Made by a program: the position numbers and the translations under genes | Notes under the pieces: model-generated | The model's input: only the letters and a program-made list of their open reading frames with translations | Told to the model about the DNA's origin: nothing | Database searches by the model: none | Shown: piece by piece, positions 3,532 through 49,623 of the stretch | Numbering within the stretch: position 1 is the stretch's first letter | Layout of the letters: every line of letters begins with the position of its first letter | Virus record (IMG/VR): IMGVR_UViG_3300018421_000045 | Span: 1-50,632 of that record | Reading direction: 5' to 3' (one strand) | Length of the DNA stretch: 50,632 nt | From: a virus

Positions 3532-6113
3532 TGTTTTTTTCTTCAACAAGAACAATGGGAACACATTTTAATGTTGAACATGATTCTCAACAGTCTTTAT
3601 TAGCCACATATGCTGATTATGGACAGTCATGGCCACAGGACGGAACCCAAGATAATTATTCTAGTATAAGCGCCCCTCTCTGGTTACAAGATCCAGTTGA
3701 TAGGACTCAGGGTGGTACATATACGGTGTTTAACTACAAGGCGCAAGAAAACCCTGATTATAATCAGTATAAGAGATCCAAGAGTATTCAAATAGGTAAT
3801 GGCCTTTTAATAGCAAATTCTCCGTATACGGGTGCTGCAGGTAATATAGATGGAAGGCTTGATATTTTTGGCCTTAATGGTCAGTTTAGAAGAACACTGT
3901 TGCCATATGACGCGTCAAGTAGTTTTACCAATGCTAAGAGAGGGTCGTGGGCTATTGGGCAGGGTTTAATCGTTGGTGGTAATCAGGATGATGTGTCAGA
4001 ACGAGGTCGTTGTGACCTTTATAATCTTAATGGGGAAAAACTAGGTCAGGTCCAAGTAGGATGGGAGTTCTATGATCATTTTGGATGGTCAGTTGCTATT
4101 AATGAAAATAGAATTGTAATGGGCGCACCTGGTGCTCACGATCCAAATCCATCATTTGGTGGCAAAGCTCACGGTAGAGGTTCTATAATGATCTTTGAAT
4201 ATGGTGGAGGTGGTAGATCTGCTAACCTTGGCAGGGCACAAGATGTATATATGTTGGCGCATATTTATAATTATGATGATGGATATACACCCACAAGTTC
4301 TACTGAAGGTTGTTATGCTATGATGGGCCACGACGTTGCAATTGGTTGTGGCCGTATTGTAGCAGGTGCACCTGGATATCGCACTGCAGCCGGCAATGGA
4401 TATCAAACTGGAGCCATTTATATTTTTGATCTTAATGGGGTGAAAATTACTAAAATTATTGGTGGTACTTCAGCAAATAAAACTGAAGCACAAGCTAATG
4501 GTGGTGGTGTGGCTAATAACAATGTTTATACTACATCTCAGGTTTTTGGCAATACATTTGGAATGTGTGTAGACATTGGTCATAATATGATTGTGGTTGG
4601 TGACCCAAATGCATTCAACCAAAAAGGTGCTGTATATGTATATGATCTTAATGGCAATTATATAGGTTATAGAAAAGGGGCTGCGGCAGGAGATCATCTA
4701 GGAATGTCGGTTGCCATTGGTGATGGACGTATTGTTGCTGGAGCTCCACAAACCTTATTTCCTGACACTGTTTCTACTAATAATGGAGCTGGATATGTTG
4801 AAGTACTTAGACTTCCCACTATTTACCAAACTGACAGTGACGCCAATGGATCTCTTGTTTTAGAAACAACTCTTTATCCCTGGACATATGCACCTAATGG
4901 TGGTGGATATGGTCAATGTGTTGCTATCGGCGAAGGTAAAATAGCAGTATCAGACCCATCACGTATAAAGAATGTTCCGGGTGTATCACCATCACCGTAC
5001 CATGGAGCTGTGTATTTATATGATACCTATAAAATAAATTCACACGAAAAATTTGCTTTTAATTTAGGTATGGATACAGATATGGGCAAATATAATGAAA
5101 ACAGACTTGATGATTCTGCATCTTATACAAATAGATCCGGCAGTTTTACATTAAGGGGTATGCTTCCAGGTGTTAGAGCTTCAGAGCTTGTTGAACCGGG
5201 AGGTTCTATTTTTATTGATAGTAATTCATTTGTTTATTCTGATGATAGTACTCAACCGGGATTACTAATAGATACTGATAATATTACTATAACAAATGCT
5301 GGTATTATAATGGGCCGTGGTGGTAATGGAGGTTCGGAATGGTTGGGAGATTCTAATGGTAGGGATGGTAGTCCCGCGATTAAAATCCAACCGTGGGTTT
5401 CAGGCACAACTATTATCAACAGGCCCGGCGCCGTTATTGCAGGCGGTGGTGGCGGAGGTAGTGGTAAAGCTGGTGGTGGTGGTGCTGGAGGCGGCCACGG
5501 CGGTGTATATAGTATAATGATGGATGCATTGGATTCCAATGCAGATGGTGTTGTTCCTATGACCGTTTCAGGAGATAATTACACTCAAAGTATTGCGGGT
5601 GAATCACTACGAGGCATTGATACCTCAGGTGTAAGTCTAAGTGGCCTTCCATATGCGAGAGGGTTTGATGGATGGGCAGTAAAACAAGGCAACCCAACTA
5701 ATCCATCTTCTCCTAGAGCTCTAGGTGGAGAAGGTGGCGGTGCAGGTGGTTATAGATATGCAAGCGGTGGTACTAGTATATTAGACGCTACTCAAAACAT
5801 TTGGGGAAGTGGTGGATGGGGTGGCCGTGACGTCTCAAATATATCTAATACTACTAGTGTTTGTAATTCTGGTACTTATGGTCATGGTGGTGGTATAGGA
5901 AGTGCTACTGGTACTGGCGGAAATGGATGTGGTAGTTTAGGATACTGGAATGGCGGCGGCGGTGGATACGGACAAGCTGGCGCAGCAAGTAATAGCTGGG
6001 CTTCAGGCAGTTATACATCATCAGGCGGTGCTAGTATTGAAGGTACCTCTTTCTTAATTGACAGTGGTACTATGTATGGCGTTCACACAGACACAACAGA
6101 TATATCTTATTAA
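3531..6113 (+). CDS. Beta-propeller fused to gp38-like polyglycine adhesin tip
   Basis: This 860-aa protein is the third propeller paralog. Seven blade motifs are at residues ~89, 144, 192, 272, 350, 398 and 469 (e.g. GCGRIVAGAPGYR, NMIVVGDPNAF). Unlike its two neighbours it continues into a second module from ~540. That module has a beta segment with NAGIIMGRGGNGG, then PGAVIAGGGGGGSGKAGGGG around 631-650 and further Gly-rich stretches to ~835. The arrangement 'N-x-G-x-I-x-G-R-G-G-x-G-G ... AGGGGGG' is the hallmark of gp38-type adhesins of T-even relatives, whose polyglycine-II helices form a receptor-binding sandwich with variable loops. The start overlaps the previous stop (TAATG). Possibly this is the distal tip of the fibre complex; the fusion of propeller and tip is unusual. 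Confidence 0.7.
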   Translation: MFFSSTRTMGTHFNVEHDSQQSLLATYADYGQSWPQDGTQDNYSSISAPLWLQDPVDRTQGGTYTVFNYKAQENPDYNQYKRSKSIQIGNGLLIANSPYTGAAGNIDGRLDIFGLNGQFRRTLLPYDASSSFTNAKRGSWAIGQGLIVGGNQDDVSERGRCDLYNLNGEKLGQVQVGWEFYDHFGWSVAINENRIVMGAPGAHDPNPSFGGKAHGRGSIMIFEYGGGGRSANLGRAQDVYMLAHIYNYDDGYTPTSSTEGCYAMMGHDVAIGCGRIVAGAPGYRTAAGNGYQTGAIYIFDLNGVKITKIIGGTSANKTEAQANGGGVANNNVYTTSQVFGNTFGMCVDIGHNMIVVGDPNAFNQKGAVYVYDLNGNYIGYRKGAAAGDHLGMSVAIGDGRIVAGAPQTLFPDTVSTNNGAGYVEVLRLPTIYQTDSDANGSLVLETTLYPWTYAPNGGGYGQCVAIGEGKIAVSDPSRIKNVPGVSPSPYHGAVYLYDTYKINSHEKFAFNLGMDTDMGKYNENRLDDSASYTNRSGSFTLRGMLPGVRASELVEPGGSIFIDSNSFVYSDDSTQPGLLIDTDNITITNAGIIMGRGGNGGSEWLGDSNGRDGSPAIKIQPWVSGTTIINRPGAVIAGGGGGGSGKAGGGGAGGGHGGVYSIMMDALDSNADGVVPMTVSGDNYTQSIAGESLRGIDTSGVSLSGLPYARGFDGWAVKQGNPTNPSSPRALGGEGGGAGGYRYASGGTSILDATQNIWGSGGWGGRDVSNISNTTSVCNSGTYGHGGGIGSATGTGGNGCGSLGYWNGGGGGYGQAGAASNSWASGSYTSSGGASIEGTSFLIDSGTMYGVHTDTTDISY

Positions 6114-26732: not shown

Positions 26733-29369
26733 ATGATAAAAATAGCGATAATAGACTTACTAGGTCTAACATATGATGGTGATACATTAAACAGTAGAGG
26801 TTTGGGTGGATCTGAATCTGCTGTTATTCTTATGTCAAAAGAATTGGCTAAGATTGGATTTAATGTAACCGTATTTAATAATTGCCTTGACAGTCAAGCT
26901 ACTCCTGGTATATACGATAATGTAAAATTTATTGACCATACACAAGCGGATACTAATGAAGTATTTGATATTGTAATATCTTCAAGATCTGTTTATCCTT
27001 TCTTTGCAAATAATCAATACGGTACAATGTGTGCAAATGCAACACATAAAGTTGTATGGATGCATGATACTTTTTGTGAAGGTGATCAACATATTGAGGA
27101 TATGATTAATCAAGGTATTATTGATGAATTGTTTACTCTATCTGATTTTCATTCTACATATGTACTTAATTGTGATCATGGAAGCAAGAGAAATTTTGAA
27201 GTATTAAAACATAAAATATTTCAGACACGTAATGGAGCCGTAAAGTATATTGATGAAATTAATCTTTCTAAAAAAGACAAAAATCATTTTGTATACAATG
27301 CGTCAGTTACAAAAGGTCTTAAACCACTTCTCAATGATATTTGGCCAAAGGTAAAAGAACAAATACCGAATGCTCATTTAACTGTTATTGGTGGATACTA
27401 TAGATTTAGAGAAGGAGCCGAACCAGACGCCCAAGAAAAAGACTTACACGCCTTTGAAGAATCAATATCAGAAGATCTTAATGTAACATTTACTAACGTA
27501 ATACCTCAAAACCAAATAGCCGATATATTAGCAAATGCTACTTATATGATATATCCAACAGACTTTCCCGAGACGTTCGGTATATCCTCATTAGAATCTC
27601 TTTTATATAAAACACCTATCATTACATCTAGGTTTGGTGCTCTTGAAGAAACAGCAATTGACTTGGCGTGTTATAAAACTAATTATGCTTCTGTGCCTAA
27701 TAGTTTATTTCCTCATATAGATGCCCAAGCTCAATCTGATATTTTTGTTTCGAAGGTGTTAGAAGCATATGGTGATGATTATCTTCTACAACAAAAACAA
27801 AACTATTGTGATGTAATTAATGATATCTATGGATGGGATACAGTAGCACTACAGTGGAAGCAGCAGTTTTATTTTAAATTAGAAAAGTATCTACCGGTAG
27901 ATGACTATCGTAAGGTACAACAAATTAATGATAAAGTCAAGAGGGTTTACGGCAGAAGATTTGATAATGAAGTTGAAAGGCAAGTCTATAAAAGTTATGG
28001 TGATCAAAAAAGAATTGTAATTATATCACCGTTTTGGAACGCTAGTGATTATTTACTTGCACATTGTGAATCTATTGATCAACAAGATTACGATAATTAT
28101 CTACATATATTGATAGACGATGCGTCTGATGATGTAATACCTGAATTACCCGAAAATAAAAAAAGAATATTTGTTCAAAATCCCCAAAGGCTAGGCTGTA
28201 TTAGAAATCAAATGAATGCTTTTCATCGATGGGTTGAGGAGGATGACATTGTAATACTTCTTGACGGTGATGATTTTTTAGTAAGTAATAATACTATATT
28301 CCATTACTATAATCAATTATATAATGATGGAATAGAATTTACTTATGGCTCCTGTTGGAGTATGGCGGATGGCATTCCTCTTATTGCACAAGATTATCCT
28401 ACAGATGTTAAACTTAATAAAACATATAGAGAGCATTTATTTAATTGGAAAATACCATACACTCATTTAAGAACCTTTAAAGGTATTCACTGTAAGGATC
28501 TTAACTATAGTAATTATAAAAAAGATGGAAAGTGGTTAATGAGTGGCATGGACAATCCTTTATTTTATGAACTTATAGAAAAAGTAGATTCAGATAAAAT
28601 AAAAGCTGTTAAAGAAATAACATGTTTTTATAACGACATTAACCCACTAAATGATTATAAGGTAAACCCAATGGAACAAAATCAAAACGCTGATACATCT
28701 TATGAAACATCTGAAGAAAAACATGCTCCTCATTTACTTTATAAAAAAATTGAAGAGTTGCCTGAGATTAATATTCTTATAGCGGTGCCAACAAATAAGT
28801 ATATTTCTCCAGAAACATTTAAATCAATTTATGATGTAAAGAAACCTCAAAATGTTAAATTACATTTTGAATACTTTTTTGGCTATATGGTTGATCAGGT
28901 TAGAAACCTTGCCGTTGAGTGGGGTAAGAATTATGATTATTTGTGGTTTATAGATAGCGATATTTCTTTTGATGAGGGTGCTTTGATCAGACTTTTAAGT
29001 CATGATAAAGACATTGTTTCAGGAGTATATGTTCAGAGAAAAGAACCACATAATATTACTGAATTGTATCATGATACTGGTAAGGGTCAGGAGAATATTA
29101 TTTGGACAGAAGAATTAAAAAACAAGGTTTTTAGGGTTTCTGCATGTGGAATGGGTTGTGTTTTAATAAAAAGACATGTATTAAAAACCATTGAGTATCC
29201 TCATTTTTATTATCAATCGGCAATTAATCATATGAATACAATTTCTGAGGATGTGTACTTCTGTAATAAAGCTAAAAAACTCAATTGGCAAATCTGGGCG
29301 GATGGTGGAGTAATATGTCATCATCATGGTGAATCAGTGTTTATTCCAACAGATGAAGAAAAAAAATAG
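26733..29369 (+). CDS. Three-domain glycosyltransferase fusion (GT-B + two GT-A)
   Basis: This 878-aa cytoplasmic enzyme is predicted to transfer sugars from nucleotide-sugar donors. Residues ~1-385 form a GT-B, family-4-like domain with GLGGSESAV near the start and YPTDFPETFGISSLE (acid-x7-Glu donor-binding motif) at ~274-288. Residues ~425-660 form a GT-A family-2-like domain with ISPFWN, IDDASDD and LLDGDDF (metal-binding acidic triad near 510). Residues ~690-870 form a second GT-A-like domain with VPTNKYISPETF, WFIDSDISF (DxD near 740) and DIVSGVY. Three active-site sets in one chain suggest sequential sugar addition. Its place between fibre tip and neck genes suggests virion or fibre glycosylation; DNA or host-surface modification is an alternative. 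The acceptor is unknown. Confidence 0.75.
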   Translation: MIKIAIIDLLGLTYDGDTLNSRGLGGSESAVILMSKELAKIGFNVTVFNNCLDSQATPGIYDNVKFIDHTQADTNEVFDIVISSRSVYPFFANNQYGTMCANATHKVVWMHDTFCEGDQHIEDMINQGIIDELFTLSDFHSTYVLNCDHGSKRNFEVLKHKIFQTRNGAVKYIDEINLSKKDKNHFVYNASVTKGLKPLLNDIWPKVKEQIPNAHLTVIGGYYRFREGAEPDAQEKDLHAFEESISEDLNVTFTNVIPQNQIADILANATYMIYPTDFPETFGISSLESLLYKTPIITSRFGALEETAIDLACYKTNYASVPNSLFPHIDAQAQSDIFVSKVLEAYGDDYLLQQKQNYCDVINDIYGWDTVALQWKQQFYFKLEKYLPVDDYRKVQQINDKVKRVYGRRFDNEVERQVYKSYGDQKRIVIISPFWNASDYLLAHCESIDQQDYDNYLHILIDDASDDVIPELPENKKRIFVQNPQRLGCIRNQMNAFHRWVEEDDIVILLDGDDFLVSNNTIFHYYNQLYNDGIEFTYGSCWSMADGIPLIAQDYPTDVKLNKTYREHLFNWKIPYTHLRTFKGIHCKDLNYSNYKKDGKWLMSGMDNPLFYELIEKVDSDKIKAVKEITCFYNDINPLNDYKVNPMEQNQNADTSYETSEEKHAPHLLYKKIEELPEINILIAVPTNKYISPETFKSIYDVKKPQNVKLHFEYFFGYMVDQVRNLAVEWGKNYDYLWFIDSDISFDEGALIRLLSHDKDIVSGVYVQRKEPHNITELYHDTGKGQENIIWTEELKNKVFRVSACGMGCVLIKRHVLKTIEYPHFYYQSAINHMNTISEDVYFCNKAKKLNWQIWADGGVICHHHGESVFIPTDEEKK

Positions 29370-42269: not shown

Positions 42270-42767
42270 ATGAAATTATTTTTGGATATGGATGGAGTCA
42301 TTGCTGACTTCTTTGGTGGTTTTGAAAAGAAATTTAATGTTAGTCATTGGAAAGATCTTGAGGATCCCCAGTCTAATGTTGAAAGTCTAAAGAATACAAA
42401 TTGGTTTAATACACTTGAACCATTTGATACTTCAGCTAAGTTAGTAGAGACCTGTCGTAAGATAGCTGGACGAGATTATGGTATCTGCTCTTCTCCTATT
42501 TCAGGAGATGATCATAATTCATCTTATTGGAAACGTGTATGGTTAGAACGTCATGGCTTTATGCCAGAGATACCTAATCTTATCTTTACTCGTGATAAGC
42601 ATAAGTTTGCAAATGAGATGTTCTCTGGAGAACCAAACATCTTGGTAGATGATAAACCCAGCAACATAAAAGAATGGATTGCTGCTGGTGGAATTGGTTT
42701 ACTATATCAAGCCAATGAATCAGACGTAGATGAATTAATTAAAGATCTACGATTTGCTTTCAGTTAA
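42270..42767 (+). CDS. HAD-family 5'(3')-deoxyribonucleotidase-like phosphatase
   Basis: This 165-aa protein has an AGGAGG ribosome site. It is a haloacid-dehalogenase phosphatase: motif I DMDGV at residues 6-10 (nucleophile Asp6, acid Asp8), motif II near CSSPIS (~70-75), a Lys in KRVW/RDKHKF, and motif III ILVDDKPSNI (~128-137). The size and the FLDMDGVIADF start fit the short 5'(3')-deoxyribonucleotidase group found in many phages. It would dephosphorylate dNMPs and adjust nucleotide pools. It is the third gene of the early-type operon. Confidence 0.8.
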   Translation: MKLFLDMDGVIADFFGGFEKKFNVSHWKDLEDPQSNVESLKNTNWFNTLEPFDTSAKLVETCRKIAGRDYGICSSPISGDDHNSSYWKRVWLERHGFMPEIPNLIFTRDKHKFANEMFSGEPNILVDDKPSNIKEWIAAGGIGLLYQANESDVDELIKDLRFAFS

Positions 42768-46521: not shown

Positions 46522-46545
46522 AATAGTAATGTGAAGGATCATATT

Positions 46546-47136
46546 ATGAGTAAAAGAAAAAATATACATTACGTTAACAATAAAGAATTCTCTCAAGCCG
46601 TAGTCGACTATTGTGGTGATTTGGCGGAAGCTAAACAAAAAGAAGAACCATTACCAATTGTGCCTGATTATATCGCTTCATGCTTTCTAAAGATCGCGGA
46701 AGGTCTATCACACAAATCTAACTTCATTAGATATACATATCGTGAAGAGATGGTAATGGATGCTGTAGAGAATTGTCTCAAAGCTATTGAAAACTATAAT
46801 GTTGAGGCTGCTACAAGAACTGGTAATCCAAATGCATTTGCATACTTTACACAAATCTCATGGTATGCTTTTCTTCGTCGTATTGCAAAAGAAAAGAAAC
46901 AACAAGACATTAAATTAAAATATATGACCTCTTCAGGTATTGAGGAGTATATTATTTCTAATGGTGATACACAGTCTAATGCTGTAGTTCAGGCCTTTGT
47001 TGATACTTTAAAAGACCGTATTGACAAAGTAAAAGAAAAAGATGATGAGTTCAAAGTATTTGCTGAAAAAGAAAAGCAACAGAAGAAACTTACTAGAACC
47101 AAGATCGTTGATTCTGATTTAAGAGACTTTTTATGA
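46546..47136 (+). CDS. gp55: Late sigma factor gp55
   Basis: This 196-aa minimal sigma factor (T4: 185 aa) lets host RNA polymerase recognise TATAAATA late promoters. The start is the ATG of MSKRKNIHYVNNKEF with GAAGGA upstream; an in-frame GTG 15 nt earlier coincides with the ribosome site. The sigma region 2-like core is clear: TYREEMVMDAVENCLKAIEN, then PNAFAYFTQISWYAFLRRIA and KEKKQQ. Its target boxes are found before six genes in this window. It overlaps the next gene by ATGA. Confidence 0.93.
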   Translation: MSKRKNIHYVNNKEFSQAVVDYCGDLAEAKQKEEPLPIVPDYIASCFLKIAEGLSHKSNFIRYTYREEMVMDAVENCLKAIENYNVEAATRTGNPNAFAYFTQISWYAFLRRIAKEKKQQDIKLKYMTSSGIEEYIISNGDTQSNAVVQAFVDTLKDRIDKVKEKDDEFKVFAEKEKQQKKLTRTKIVDSDLRDFL

Positions 47137-47888
47137 AAATATTATTGACAGGATGGGAGGGATGTGTTGGATCATCTCTTTCTCTTTACTTAAGGATGGA
47201 AGGCCACGATGTTCAACATTTTCAGGGAGACATTCGTGAATGGGATCGGTGGGCTTTTTATACCGATACATTTTGGGATGCTTTAATTCATCTAGCTGCT
47301 ATACCAGGAGTTCGTAGATCGTTTGATATTCCAGAAGAATATTATGATCATAATGTAAACGGCACCCGTAATGCTTTAAACTTTGCATCAACTGTTTGTA
47401 TCAAACATTTATATGCTTCTTCCTCAAATGCTTATGAATGGTATGGTAATCCATATGCAGCTACTAAGAAGATGTGTGAAGTAATGGGTGAAGAACATTA
47501 TAATGCTAAGGGTATGAGATTCCATACTGTATGGCCTGGACGTGATGATATGCTCTATAAAAAGTTAATGAGAAATGAAGTAGAATATATCAATGCTAAT
47601 CATTATAGGGATTGGATTCACGTTGATGATCTTTGTAATGCCATCTTGACTATTTTAAATAATTGGGATAAAATAGATAAGAAAGTATTAGATATTGGTA
47701 CTGGTTCAACCTTTAATGTATTAGAGATGGCCGAAGAAGTATTTGGCTGGAAAGGTGAGATTCGTCATGAAAATCCTATTGGAGAAAGAGTAAAGACACA
47801 AGCGGATGTACAATACTTATATGATCTAGGATGGAAACCAGAGAAAGATATATTCAGTGAAAATATTAGTGATGGGGTTACCAGGTAG
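47133..47888 (+). CDS. NAD(P)-dependent sugar-nucleotide epimerase/dehydratase-like (SDR)
   Basis: This 251-aa extended short-chain dehydrogenase has a Rossmann cofactor motif TGWEGCVGS at 6-14, an acidic GDI strand end (~36-38), LIHLAAIPG (~60-68), the SSS catalytic stretch (~95-97) and YAATKK (Tyr and Lys of YxxxK, ~106-111). The C-terminal substrate part (HVDDLCNAIL and IGTGSTFNVLEMAEEVFGW) is like sugar-nucleotide epimerases/dehydratases. It is shorter than the usual 300-340 aa. It overlaps gp55 (ATGA) and the kinase gene. It probably makes or remodels a nucleotide sugar. Confidence 0.82.
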   Translation: MKILLTGWEGCVGSSLSLYLRMEGHDVQHFQGDIREWDRWAFYTDTFWDALIHLAAIPGVRRSFDIPEEYYDHNVNGTRNALNFASTVCIKHLYASSSNAYEWYGNPYAATKKMCEVMGEEHYNAKGMRFHTVWPGRDDMLYKKLMRNEVEYINANHYRDWIHVDDLCNAILTILNNWDKIDKKVLDIGTGSTFNVLEMAEEVFGWKGEIRHENPIGERVKTQADVQYLYDLGWKPEKDIFSENISDGVTR

Positions 47889-48318
47889 TGGTAAGTCTAA
47901 GATTTCTAGAGAACTATCGGTTGGGTTAAACTGTGCCAGGTTTGACGCTGATGATATTCGTAAAACAACTCAAGACTGGGACTTTTCTGAAGAGGGAAGA
48001 ATAAGACAGGCTCGTAGAATGGCCAACCTTGCCGACTACGAAAAAGGTTGTGGACGTATTGTAATATGCGATTTTGTTTGTCCTACTGATCTTACTCGTT
48101 ATATTTTCGATGCTGATTTTACAATATGGATGGATACTATTAAAAAAAGTAAATATGATGATACAAATAAAATATTTGAAAAACCTGAGAGTTATGATGT
48201 AAGGATTGATAGATGGATAGATCCAAACCTACTGTACAGTTACTCGGTCGCTGGCAGCCGTGGCATAGAGGTCACACCGAACTTTTTAAAAGAGCTTTTC
48301 AAAAAACTGGTCAAGTAA
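47857..48318 (+). CDS. APS-kinase-like P-loop kinase
   Basis: This 153-aa protein starts best at GTG (MKILVMGLPGSGKS gives the full first strand); the ATG at 47872 would remove part of that strand. Walker A is GLPGSGKS at 7-14. DADDIRKTT and WDFSEEGRIRQARRMANLAD (~41-60) follow the adenylylsulfate (APS) kinase pattern, as does the DTNKIFEKPE ending near 102-111. It is short for APS kinase. The last ~33 residues are encoded in the 106-nt overlap with the next gene. The substrate may be APS or another small phosphate compound. Confidence 0.7.
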   Translation: MKILVMGLPGSGKSKISRELSVGLNCARFDADDIRKTTQDWDFSEEGRIRQARRMANLADYEKGCGRIVICDFVCPTDLTRYIFDADFTIWMDTIKKSKYDDTNKIFEKPESYDVRIDRWIDPNLLYSYSVAGSRGIEVTPNFLKELFKKLVK

Positions 48319-48584
48319 TAATTCAGGTTAGGAAAATGCCTAGAGATGATCAAAACCCATTTGATTATCATGATGTAAGACTTTTTATTACAAATGCACT
48401 TAAAGCAGAGGGATATGTATATGGAAAGGATTACGAAATAAATGATGTTCCTAACATTATAGATATTGCCTTTGGCAGAAATGTGGGTTATACTATTACA
48501 GAACATGATTTAGGTGAAGAGATTCATAAAATCTCAGCGACAAATATTAGAAAGCAATTTAATGAAAGTAGCAATTATCAATGA
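48213..48584 (+). CDS. HxGH-family nucleotidyltransferase (cytidylyl/adenylyl)
   Basis: This 123-aa protein carries GRWQPWHRGH (12-21) and ISATNIRK (~107-114). These are the HxGH and ISxTxxR motifs that bind the nucleotide triphosphate in adenylyl- and cytidylyltransferases such as NadM and glycerol-phosphate types. The length fits a minimal single-domain enzyme. The reaction would be NTP + phosphate-acceptor to NDP-product + PPi. It starts inside the kinase gene (106-nt overlap, other frame) and overlaps gp47 by 23 nt. The acceptor is unknown; NMN or a sugar phosphate is possible. Confidence 0.82.
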   Translation: MDRSKPTVQLLGRWQPWHRGHTELFKRAFQKTGQVIIQVRKMPRDDQNPFDYHDVRLFITNALKAEGYVYGKDYEINDVPNIIDIAFGRNVGYTITEHDLGEEIHKISATNIRKQFNESSNYQ

Positions 48585-49623
48585 CACTCATTGTGGCATT
48601 CGCAATAGCAGCGACATATTTCTCGATAACGCAGAAAAATTTTATTCTGATGTATTTTTTCCTTATCTTTTGGAACATAATATTAGCCATATCATTCACC
48701 TTGGTGACTACTATGATAACCGGAAATTTATTAACTTCCGCGCTCTTCACCGTAACCGTAATCATTTCCTTAAACCGCTTAGAGAGTTAGGTATAACCAT
48801 GGATATCATTTATGGTAACCATGACACATACTATAAGAATACAAATGAACTTAACAGCCTAAAAGAATTACTTGGCCATTATATGAATGAGATTAACATT
48901 ATTCAATCTCCAACCGTAATGGATTATGATGGTATGCAGATGGCAATGGTTCCATGGATATGCCCAGAGAATGAAAAAGAATCTCTAGACTTTATTAATA
49001 ATTGTAAAGCTGATTGGGTAGGTGGTCATTTTGAAATCACCGGATATGAAATGTTTGCAGGTCAGCCATCTCCTCATGGATTGGATCGATCTATATTTAA
49101 ACGATTTGAGAAAGTCATTTCAGGTCATTTTCATCATAAATCATCTCAAGATAATATTGAATATCTTGGATCACAAATGGAGTTCTTTTGGAATGATGCA
49201 CACGATAATAAATACTTTCACGTCTTGGATACGGATCTACGGGTTCTTACTCCTGTGCGCAACCCTCATACTATCTTCCACCGTATTCGGTATGATGATA
49301 CTTGTAACGACTATACTAGCTATGATCTAGATCAAGTTGAAAATAAGTTTGTAAAGATTGTTGTAATCAATAAATCAGATACATTTATGTTTGATAGGTT
49401 TATAGATCGTATTAATAATAGAAACATCCATGAACTAAAGATTGCAGAAAACTTTAACGAATTTCTTGGAGAAAATGTAGAAGATCAAGAAATATCGGTT
49501 GAAGATACCTCTACATTGCTCTATACTTATATAGACGCAGTTGATACAGATCTTGATAAAGATAAGATCAAACATCAAATGTCTGAATTGATGGTAGAAG
49601 CCCAAACCCTAGAAGTAGTATGA
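48562..49623 (+). CDS. gp47: Recombination nuclease gp47 (Mre11-like)
   Basis: This 353-aa protein (T4: 339 aa) is the nuclease subunit of the gp46/gp47 complex that resects double-strand ends. The start is the ATG of MKVAIINDTHCG; a GTG 48 nt earlier in frame is unsupported. Metal ligands are seen in NDTHCG (~8-13), HLGDYYDNR (~47-55), GNHDTYY (~86-92), GGHFE (~158) and SGHFHH (~192-197). All phosphoesterase motifs are intact. It ends in an ATGA overlap with gp46. Confidence 0.94.
   Translation: MKVAIINDTHCGIRNSSDIFLDNAEKFYSDVFFPYLLEHNISHIIHLGDYYDNRKFINFRALHRNRNHFLKPLRELGITMDIIYGNHDTYYKNTNELNSLKELLGHYMNEINIIQSPTVMDYDGMQMAMVPWICPENEKESLDFINNCKADWVGGHFEITGYEMFAGQPSPHGLDRSIFKRFEKVISGHFHHKSSQDNIEYLGSQMEFFWNDAHDNKYFHVLDTDLRVLTPVRNPHTIFHRIRYDDTCNDYTSYDLDQVENKFVKIVVINKSDTFMFDRFIDRINNRNIHELKIAENFNEFLGENVEDQEISVEDTSTLLYTYIDAVDTDLDKDKIKHQMSELMVEAQTLEVV

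Follow-up and report, generated by a model that had tools for sequence, protein, structure and literature searches.

The genes treated here resemble parts of several described systems. In the animal PAPS synthetases (PAPSS1/2) a kinase of the APS-kinase fold forms the N-terminal part and an HxGH adenylyltransferase of the Sat type the C-terminal part of one protein. Classical APS kinases (CysC; PF01583, TIGR00455) measure about 200 residues and close over APS with a lid. Further HxGH proteins with which comparison is possible are the Sat-type ATP sulfurylases (PF01747) and the archaeal NMN adenylyltransferases (NMNATs; TIGR01527; 1f9a, 1ej2), while ADP-heptose synthesis of the HldE/HldD type joins a sugar kinase, a transferase and an epimerase. 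In viruses, cysC genes have been reported as AMGs of assimilatory sulfate reduction, 62 of them in freshwater phages and with high transcription, the viral cysC transcripts of Rotsee Lake exceeding the bacterial ones in some samples (PMC10914622). The viral cysC genes from the Challenger Deep cluster with viral sequences alone and are 27-47% similar to cellular CysC, and 109-135 residues of the encoded proteins, i.e. 92-99% of the sequence, were modelled (PMC9529941). The accessible portions of these two reports favour assimilatory sulfate reduction and mention no partner transferase (PMC10914622, PMC9529941), and a review lists viral cysC as not validated (PMC12713726). Likewise, no description of a transferase partner of such a kinase or of CysC was found in the literature searched.

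The stretch of DNA analysed here, henceforth called the window, is a virus record of 50.6 kb (50,632 nucleotides) which carries T4-type genes. All features considered are located on the plus strand. A gene for a gp55-like late sigma factor (46531 to 47136; PHROG 234, E = 1e-52) forms the left border and a gene for a gp47-like recombination nuclease subunit (48562 to 49623 with its ATG at 48562; PHROG 100, E = 2e-93) the right border of a site which accommodates three further reading frames. The first of these (47133 to 47888; 251 aa; PF01370, 3.1e-22; PHROG 540) encodes an SDR-type NAD-dependent nucleotide-sugar epimerase/dehydratase of the common cyanophage type, whose extended-SDR motifs TGxxGxxG and YxxxK are present as TGWEGCVG and YAATK. 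It is followed by the gene of a short P-loop kinase, K (47857 to 48318; 153 aa, GTG start; PF01583, 1.3e-9, 38.7 bits), predicted to adopt the APS-kinase fold but devoid of the APS-kinase lid, and by that of a compact HxGH adenylyltransferase-like protein, N (48213 to 48584; 123 aa, motif GRWQPWHRGH; PF01467, 5.5e-5). Consecutive genes from gp55 to gp47 overlap by 4, 32, 106 and 23 nt, respectively. An earlier note on this DNA had delineated the same three reading frames as SDR, APS-kinase-like kinase and HxGH nucleotidyltransferase; its coordinates and family calls agree with the Pfam and PHROG matches, and the overlapping order between the core T4-type genes gp55 and gp47 is confirmed. Elsewhere in the window, both ends of an 878-aa reading frame (26733 to 29369) match families of phage glycosyltransferases (PHROG 2170; PHROG 1574/34859), and a 165-aa reading frame amid structural genes (42270 to 42767) matches a 5'-3' deoxyribonucleotidase (PHROG 2643).

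A survey of the gp55-gp47 junction in 80 relatives, identified through their gp47 at 72-100% identity, reveals that this junction is a cargo hotspot in which the SDR gene and the K-N pair arrived separately. The junction is empty in about 35 of the 80 relatives and holds the SDR gene alone in 20 or somewhat more of them, while K and N alone are present in L290 and L331, the latter being the same contig as L101. All three genes together occur only in the window's own near-identical contigs. The junction hence exists in at least four states, i.e. empty, SDR, K-N and SDR plus K-N (window 47130 to 48570; L262-L341), and further gaps between gp55 and gp47 of about 165, 513 and 1230 nt hold other inserts. 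In L264 the flanks are 97.5% identical to the window at the DNA level and the gene order is gp55-SDR-gp47, K-N being absent. Compared with this phage by blastn as an empty site, the window contains 707 extra bp (47863 to 48569) between the last codons of the SDR gene and the start of gp47. The edges of this cassette carry the repeats TTCAGTGAAA (47853 to 47862, overlapping the K start codon) and TTTAATGAAA (48558 to 48567, over the start codon of gp47), a decamer also present at the empty site of L264; due to a 21-bp repeat the exact edges are ambiguous. Where a relative encodes K and N with 72-79% identity to those of the window, the best match to the SDR protein is encoded about 3.9 kb downstream. 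The SDR gene is thus an unrelated passenger beside K-N.

This result bears directly on the proposal, made in the earlier note, that the three genes constitute one compact pathway in which K phosphorylates a sugar, N activates it and the SDR protein epimerises it in the manner of HldE and HldD, the product feeding the glycosyltransferase. Three enzyme classes in overlapping order are indeed what such a pathway would offer. In addition, genes for KdsA (Kdo-8-phosphate synthase), KdsB (CMP-Kdo synthetase) and SDR proteins are often present within 6 kb of K-N. In several marine phages (L011, L012, L036, L053, L097 and others) NodU-type carbamoyltransferase genes lie, like kdsA and kdsB, at this distance. 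However, in the co-occurrence check of the three families, which had been chosen beforehand as the test of the trio, SDR and K-N segregate, and about 20 relatives carry the SDR gene without K-N while others carry K-N without it. Moreover, K resembles APS kinases by profile and predicted fold and is not PfkB- or GHMP-like, so that the combination of sugar kinase, transferase and epimerase known from ADP-heptose synthesis is not present in K, N and SDR. Nothing links K-N to the glycosyltransferase reading frame, which is about 18 kb distant. The trio as one pathway is therefore rejected, and a sugar pathway of this kind appears very improbable. What stands of the proposal is a kinase and a nucleotidyltransferase which form one functional unit, new in this combination, with the SDR protein outside of it. 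To deduce a pathway from adjacency is risky if a 97.5% identical phage exposes one of three genes as a passenger.

The association of K with N is of a different kind. In IMG/VR at least 597 stretches encode a relative of N and 420 a relative of K. Where there is room downstream of K, N is present at 58 of 63 loci and absent at five; where there is room upstream of N, K is present at 63 of 64. Both conservation and pairing are far beyond chance. The usual form consists of tandem genes overlapping by 8-11 nt, yet fused forms, with the kinase N-terminal and the transferase C-terminal, are encoded by the marine contig L140 and by Stenotrophomonas and Xanthomonas phages. The same fused protein, from Casjensviridae-type phages, constitutes PHROG 10255, which is labelled "kinase" without a named function; the window differs from it in that K and N are encoded by two overlapping genes. 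Here, the overlap is out of frame and spans 106 nt (48213 to 48318), so that the last approximately 34 codons of K lie over the first approximately 35 codons of N including its HxGH motif. An overlap of this length (once 109 nt) is kept in 24 contigs from 9 distinct lineages, which excludes an assembly or sequence error as its origin. A programmed frameshift fusing K to N is likewise excluded, as N has its own start at 48213 and a slip within most of the overlap would delete HxGH. Strong selection on the overlap is not indicated either: fourfold sites match to 50% inside compared with 40% outside, which is a weak difference from sites that are not independent.

In cellular genomes K-N is rare, with 2 of 399 genomes in Pseudomonadota and 1 of 294 in a second phylum, the genomes in which it was found counted in. 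Homologues of N occur in 3 of the 399 Pseudomonadota, two of them as fusions, which is too few for bacterial neighbourhoods to serve as a guide to function. The surroundings of the L196 locus with AMP-ligase and MfnB-like genes gave no clear clue to function. In three loci (L042, L049, L061) the start region of K is overlapped from upstream by a conserved gene whose product measures about 215 aa (TGPQGSGNH...IGRD); a sulfotransferase identity of this product was considered and dropped, there being no Pfam or PDB match. In the Stenotrophomonas phage Bhz60 (L159; genus Sanovirus) a NADAR-domain gene (5157 to 5600) directly precedes the K-N fusion. Taken by itself, the exchange of cargo at the gp55-gp47 hotspot would be compatible with a generic nucleotide-handling pair that hitchhikes without any joint chemistry. 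This explanation is hardly credible, as K-N persists in phage families that are not related and at different places in the genome, be it fused, in tandem or even with a substituted kinase. K-N is one mobile phage module and functional unit.

The substitution of the kinase became apparent in a scan of viral contigs which encode a classical CysC (110 relatives, 80 of them kept). In 28 of these 80 loci, near-duplicates included, a homologue of N (30-36% identical) is encoded directly downstream of CysC. All 28 loci, again including near-duplicates, also contain a DUF2061 gene. In L413 and L423 the genes for DUF2061, CysC, Sulfotransfer_2 and N stand in a row; the CysC proteins score 235-238 bits to PF01583 and the sulfotransferases match with 9.5e-8 and 1.8e-24, respectively. 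L423 has a CysC with DUF2061 fused to it. The DUF2061 product is predicted to be a small membrane protein (L423, 2692 to 3864; L367, 4022 to 4468; between K and N in L012, L065 and L068). In about 14 K-type loci its gene separates K from N, and in L255 it lies beside a cellular CysC. As a general partner of bacterial CysC it was discarded, about 34 genomes having yielded a single case; its tie to phage APS-kinase-like genes suggests that it may take part in sulfate activation. The phage CysC proteins from L375, L384, L390 and L410, each about 315 aa long, are extended at the C-terminus by a HAD-hydrolase-like part which might act as a PAP or nucleotide phosphatase. PF01507 (CysD/CysH) is found above the cut-off in 0 of 22 contigs with CysC and N compared with 3 of 20 with CysC only, with the reservation that these contigs may be incomplete. 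L163, a K-N fusion in a bacterium, adjoins a Sulfotransfer_1 gene. However, no clear enrichment of sulfotransferases was found in K-type contigs, which contain them in about 8 of 36 records, none adjoining K-N, versus 1 of 13 without K-N, and no sulfotransferase family is present in the window or in the near-identical contig L002. The pairing of N with CysC speaks further against a sugar pathway: since N partners genuine APS kinases and sulfotransferases elsewhere, the order of reactions would be transferase then kinase, the reverse of the ADP-heptose logic which the earlier note had put forward.

By profile and predicted fold K is APS-kinase-like, yet it lies outside the CysC family proper. 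Its score to PF01583 passes the Pfam cut-off (38.7 versus 21.1 bits) but stays far from the approximately 200-240 bits reached by most cellular CysC proteins, and K falls far short of the TIGR00455 cut-off (138.7). By profile it matches the APS kinase 2yvu (1.4e-13) and, by hhalign, CysC (98.3%); its AlphaFold model (pLDDT 88) finds the APS kinase 3cr7 as best Foldseek match (E = 1.2e-6) and PAPSS1 as a further one. In an alignment of 78 K proteins to CysC, K13, D32, R35, F43, R48, R54, F73 and P76 are invariant. K thereby retains, as does CysC, the P-loop (GLPGSGK), the DxD..R motif, Phe43, Arg48, Arg54 and FVCP/FISP (FVCP in K), i.e. the nucleotide-substrate side. It differs in its length of only about 140-150 aa and in the alignment it lacks the lid (...FTGID), which is present in the CysC proteins of N-carrying phages. 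Since the lid is missing, the substrate of K may differ from APS.

This absence, together with the scarcity of sulfotransferases in K-type contigs and their distance from K-N, makes another anion possible. N might adduct a phosphonate, a phosphoramidate or a phosphate ester to a nucleotide, the 3'-OH of which would then be phosphorylated by K. Such a reading could draw on the CDP-amidate kinase of Campylobacter jejuni, an APS-kinase homologue which was formerly taken for CysC. That enzyme and its pathway are cited in PMC11800397. The varying neighbours of K-N loci, too, would suit a different head group, as would two invariant arginines of N (see below) which fit any small anion. On the other hand, the same N family pairs with a lid-bearing classical CysC, an enzyme known to act on APS, and sulfotransferases are found within CysC-N operons. 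By analogy, then, another oxyanion is conceivable, but we regard it as unlikely.

Concerning N, comparison of sequences and models points to a shrunken relative of archaeal NMN adenylyltransferase. By hhalign it matches archaeal NMNAT with 99.6%, and its model (pLDDT 87) finds MthNMNAT as best Foldseek match (E = 2e-4, TMq 0.72). Towards TIGR01527, however, it scores only 27.5 bits, below the cut-off of 181.2, the N proteins paired with CysC reaching 43.6-46.4 bits. N shares GRxQPxHxGH, NPF and ISxTxIR with archaeal NMNATs; in alignment numbering, which is used for N throughout, H18, H21, S108, T110 and R113 of the HxGH and ISxTxIR nucleotide-binding motifs are conserved. The N alignment lacks GER as well as a segment of roughly 30 residues with Trp84 and SGN..V, both of which are conserved in 15 archaeal NMNATs. 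In place of this NMN segment N contains the invariant residues R40 and R89, as would be expected for a smaller anionic substrate. In the tree, the N proteins of K-phages and of CysC-phages stand together on one side and archaeal NMNATs on the other (100/99 support). To Sat-type sulfurylases the relation is remote: N also belongs to the HxGH superfamily of adenylyltransferases and, in the 28 viral CysC loci with N downstream, it shares an operon with an APS kinase, but it lacks the QTRNPxH and GRDHAG context, aligns with PF01747 by hhalign to only 11% over 23 columns and matches this family in Pfam below the cut-off (E = 0.0076) in a weak, motif-level manner.

The kinship to archaeal NMNATs by profile and fold invites the explanation that N adenylylates NMN or NaMN and that K is a nicotinamide-riboside or NAD-directed kinase, the pair working like NadR (NR to NMN to NAD) or topping up NAD against NAD-depleting defences. 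A kinase joined to an NMNAT would correspond to NadR logic, and the NADAR gene which adjoins the K-N fusion in Bhz60 would fit, albeit in one phage clade. Yet precisely the elements which hold NMN (GER, Trp84, SGN..V) are missing from N, K resembles APS kinase and not the kinase domain of NadR, and in CysC-phages the partner of N is a genuine APS kinase with a sulfotransferase, not NAD genes, in between. An NAD module therefore seems quite unlikely.

We favour the reading that K-N is a mobile phage module for sulfate activation, to which we assign a probability slightly above one half (about 0.52). The observations behind it are pairing, mobility, independence from the SDR gene, the fold families, the exchange of K for CysC and the operon context with DUF2061 and sulfotransferase. 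In this module N, derived from an NMNAT, devoid of the NMN segment and equipped with R40 and R89, would convert ATP and sulfate to APS and PPi. K, or CysC in its place, would take over APS from N and phosphorylate its 3'-hydroxyl, APS and ATP yielding PAPS and ADP, and a sulfotransferase, of phage or host origin, would spend PAPS on sulfation instead of its going into cysteine. Since a genuine APS kinase can replace K, N has sulfotransferases as neighbours and no other source of APS is visible, N is the best candidate for the APS-forming enzyme. Against sulfate speaks that, as judged from sequence, the nearest named relatives of N are NMN adenylyltransferases and not ATP sulfurylases. For the phage of the window we infer sulfate as substrate of N, APS as substrate of K and PAPS as end product, the K-N pair probably providing PAPS by a previously undescribed route.

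So conceived, K-N would be a miniature PAPS synthetase. An APS-kinase fold and an HxGH adenylyltransferase are found adjacent or fused, and with animal PAPS synthetase K-N has in common the order of the fused domains, the kinase fold and the proposed overall reaction; it differs in that N is NMNAT-like, of 123-150 aa and not of the Sat type, and in that K is lidless. Tentatively, and with chances that we estimate at just short of even, N could represent a third class of ATP sulfurylase, a former NMNAT without NMN pocket which is almost confined to phages and acts in a phage PAPS synthetase with K or CysC as second enzyme. If this is true, sulfate activation, for which cells have few routes, would have a new and minimal solution in some 125 residues.

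The consequences would extend to the viral cysC genes. As K passes the Pfam cut-off for APS kinase, surveys for cysC would count it. The published proteins are phage APS-kinase-like as well, and those from the Challenger Deep, as far as the accessible portion of that report describes them, have the length of K and not that of CysC (PMC9529941). The phage "cysC" AMGs assigned to sulfate reduction may in part belong to the K family. If phage APS-kinase-like genes bring along a compact adenylyltransferase without a PAPS reductase, their product would be activated sulfate for sulfation and not cysteine, and many viral cysC genes would then help to sulfate surface structures of the phage or its host.
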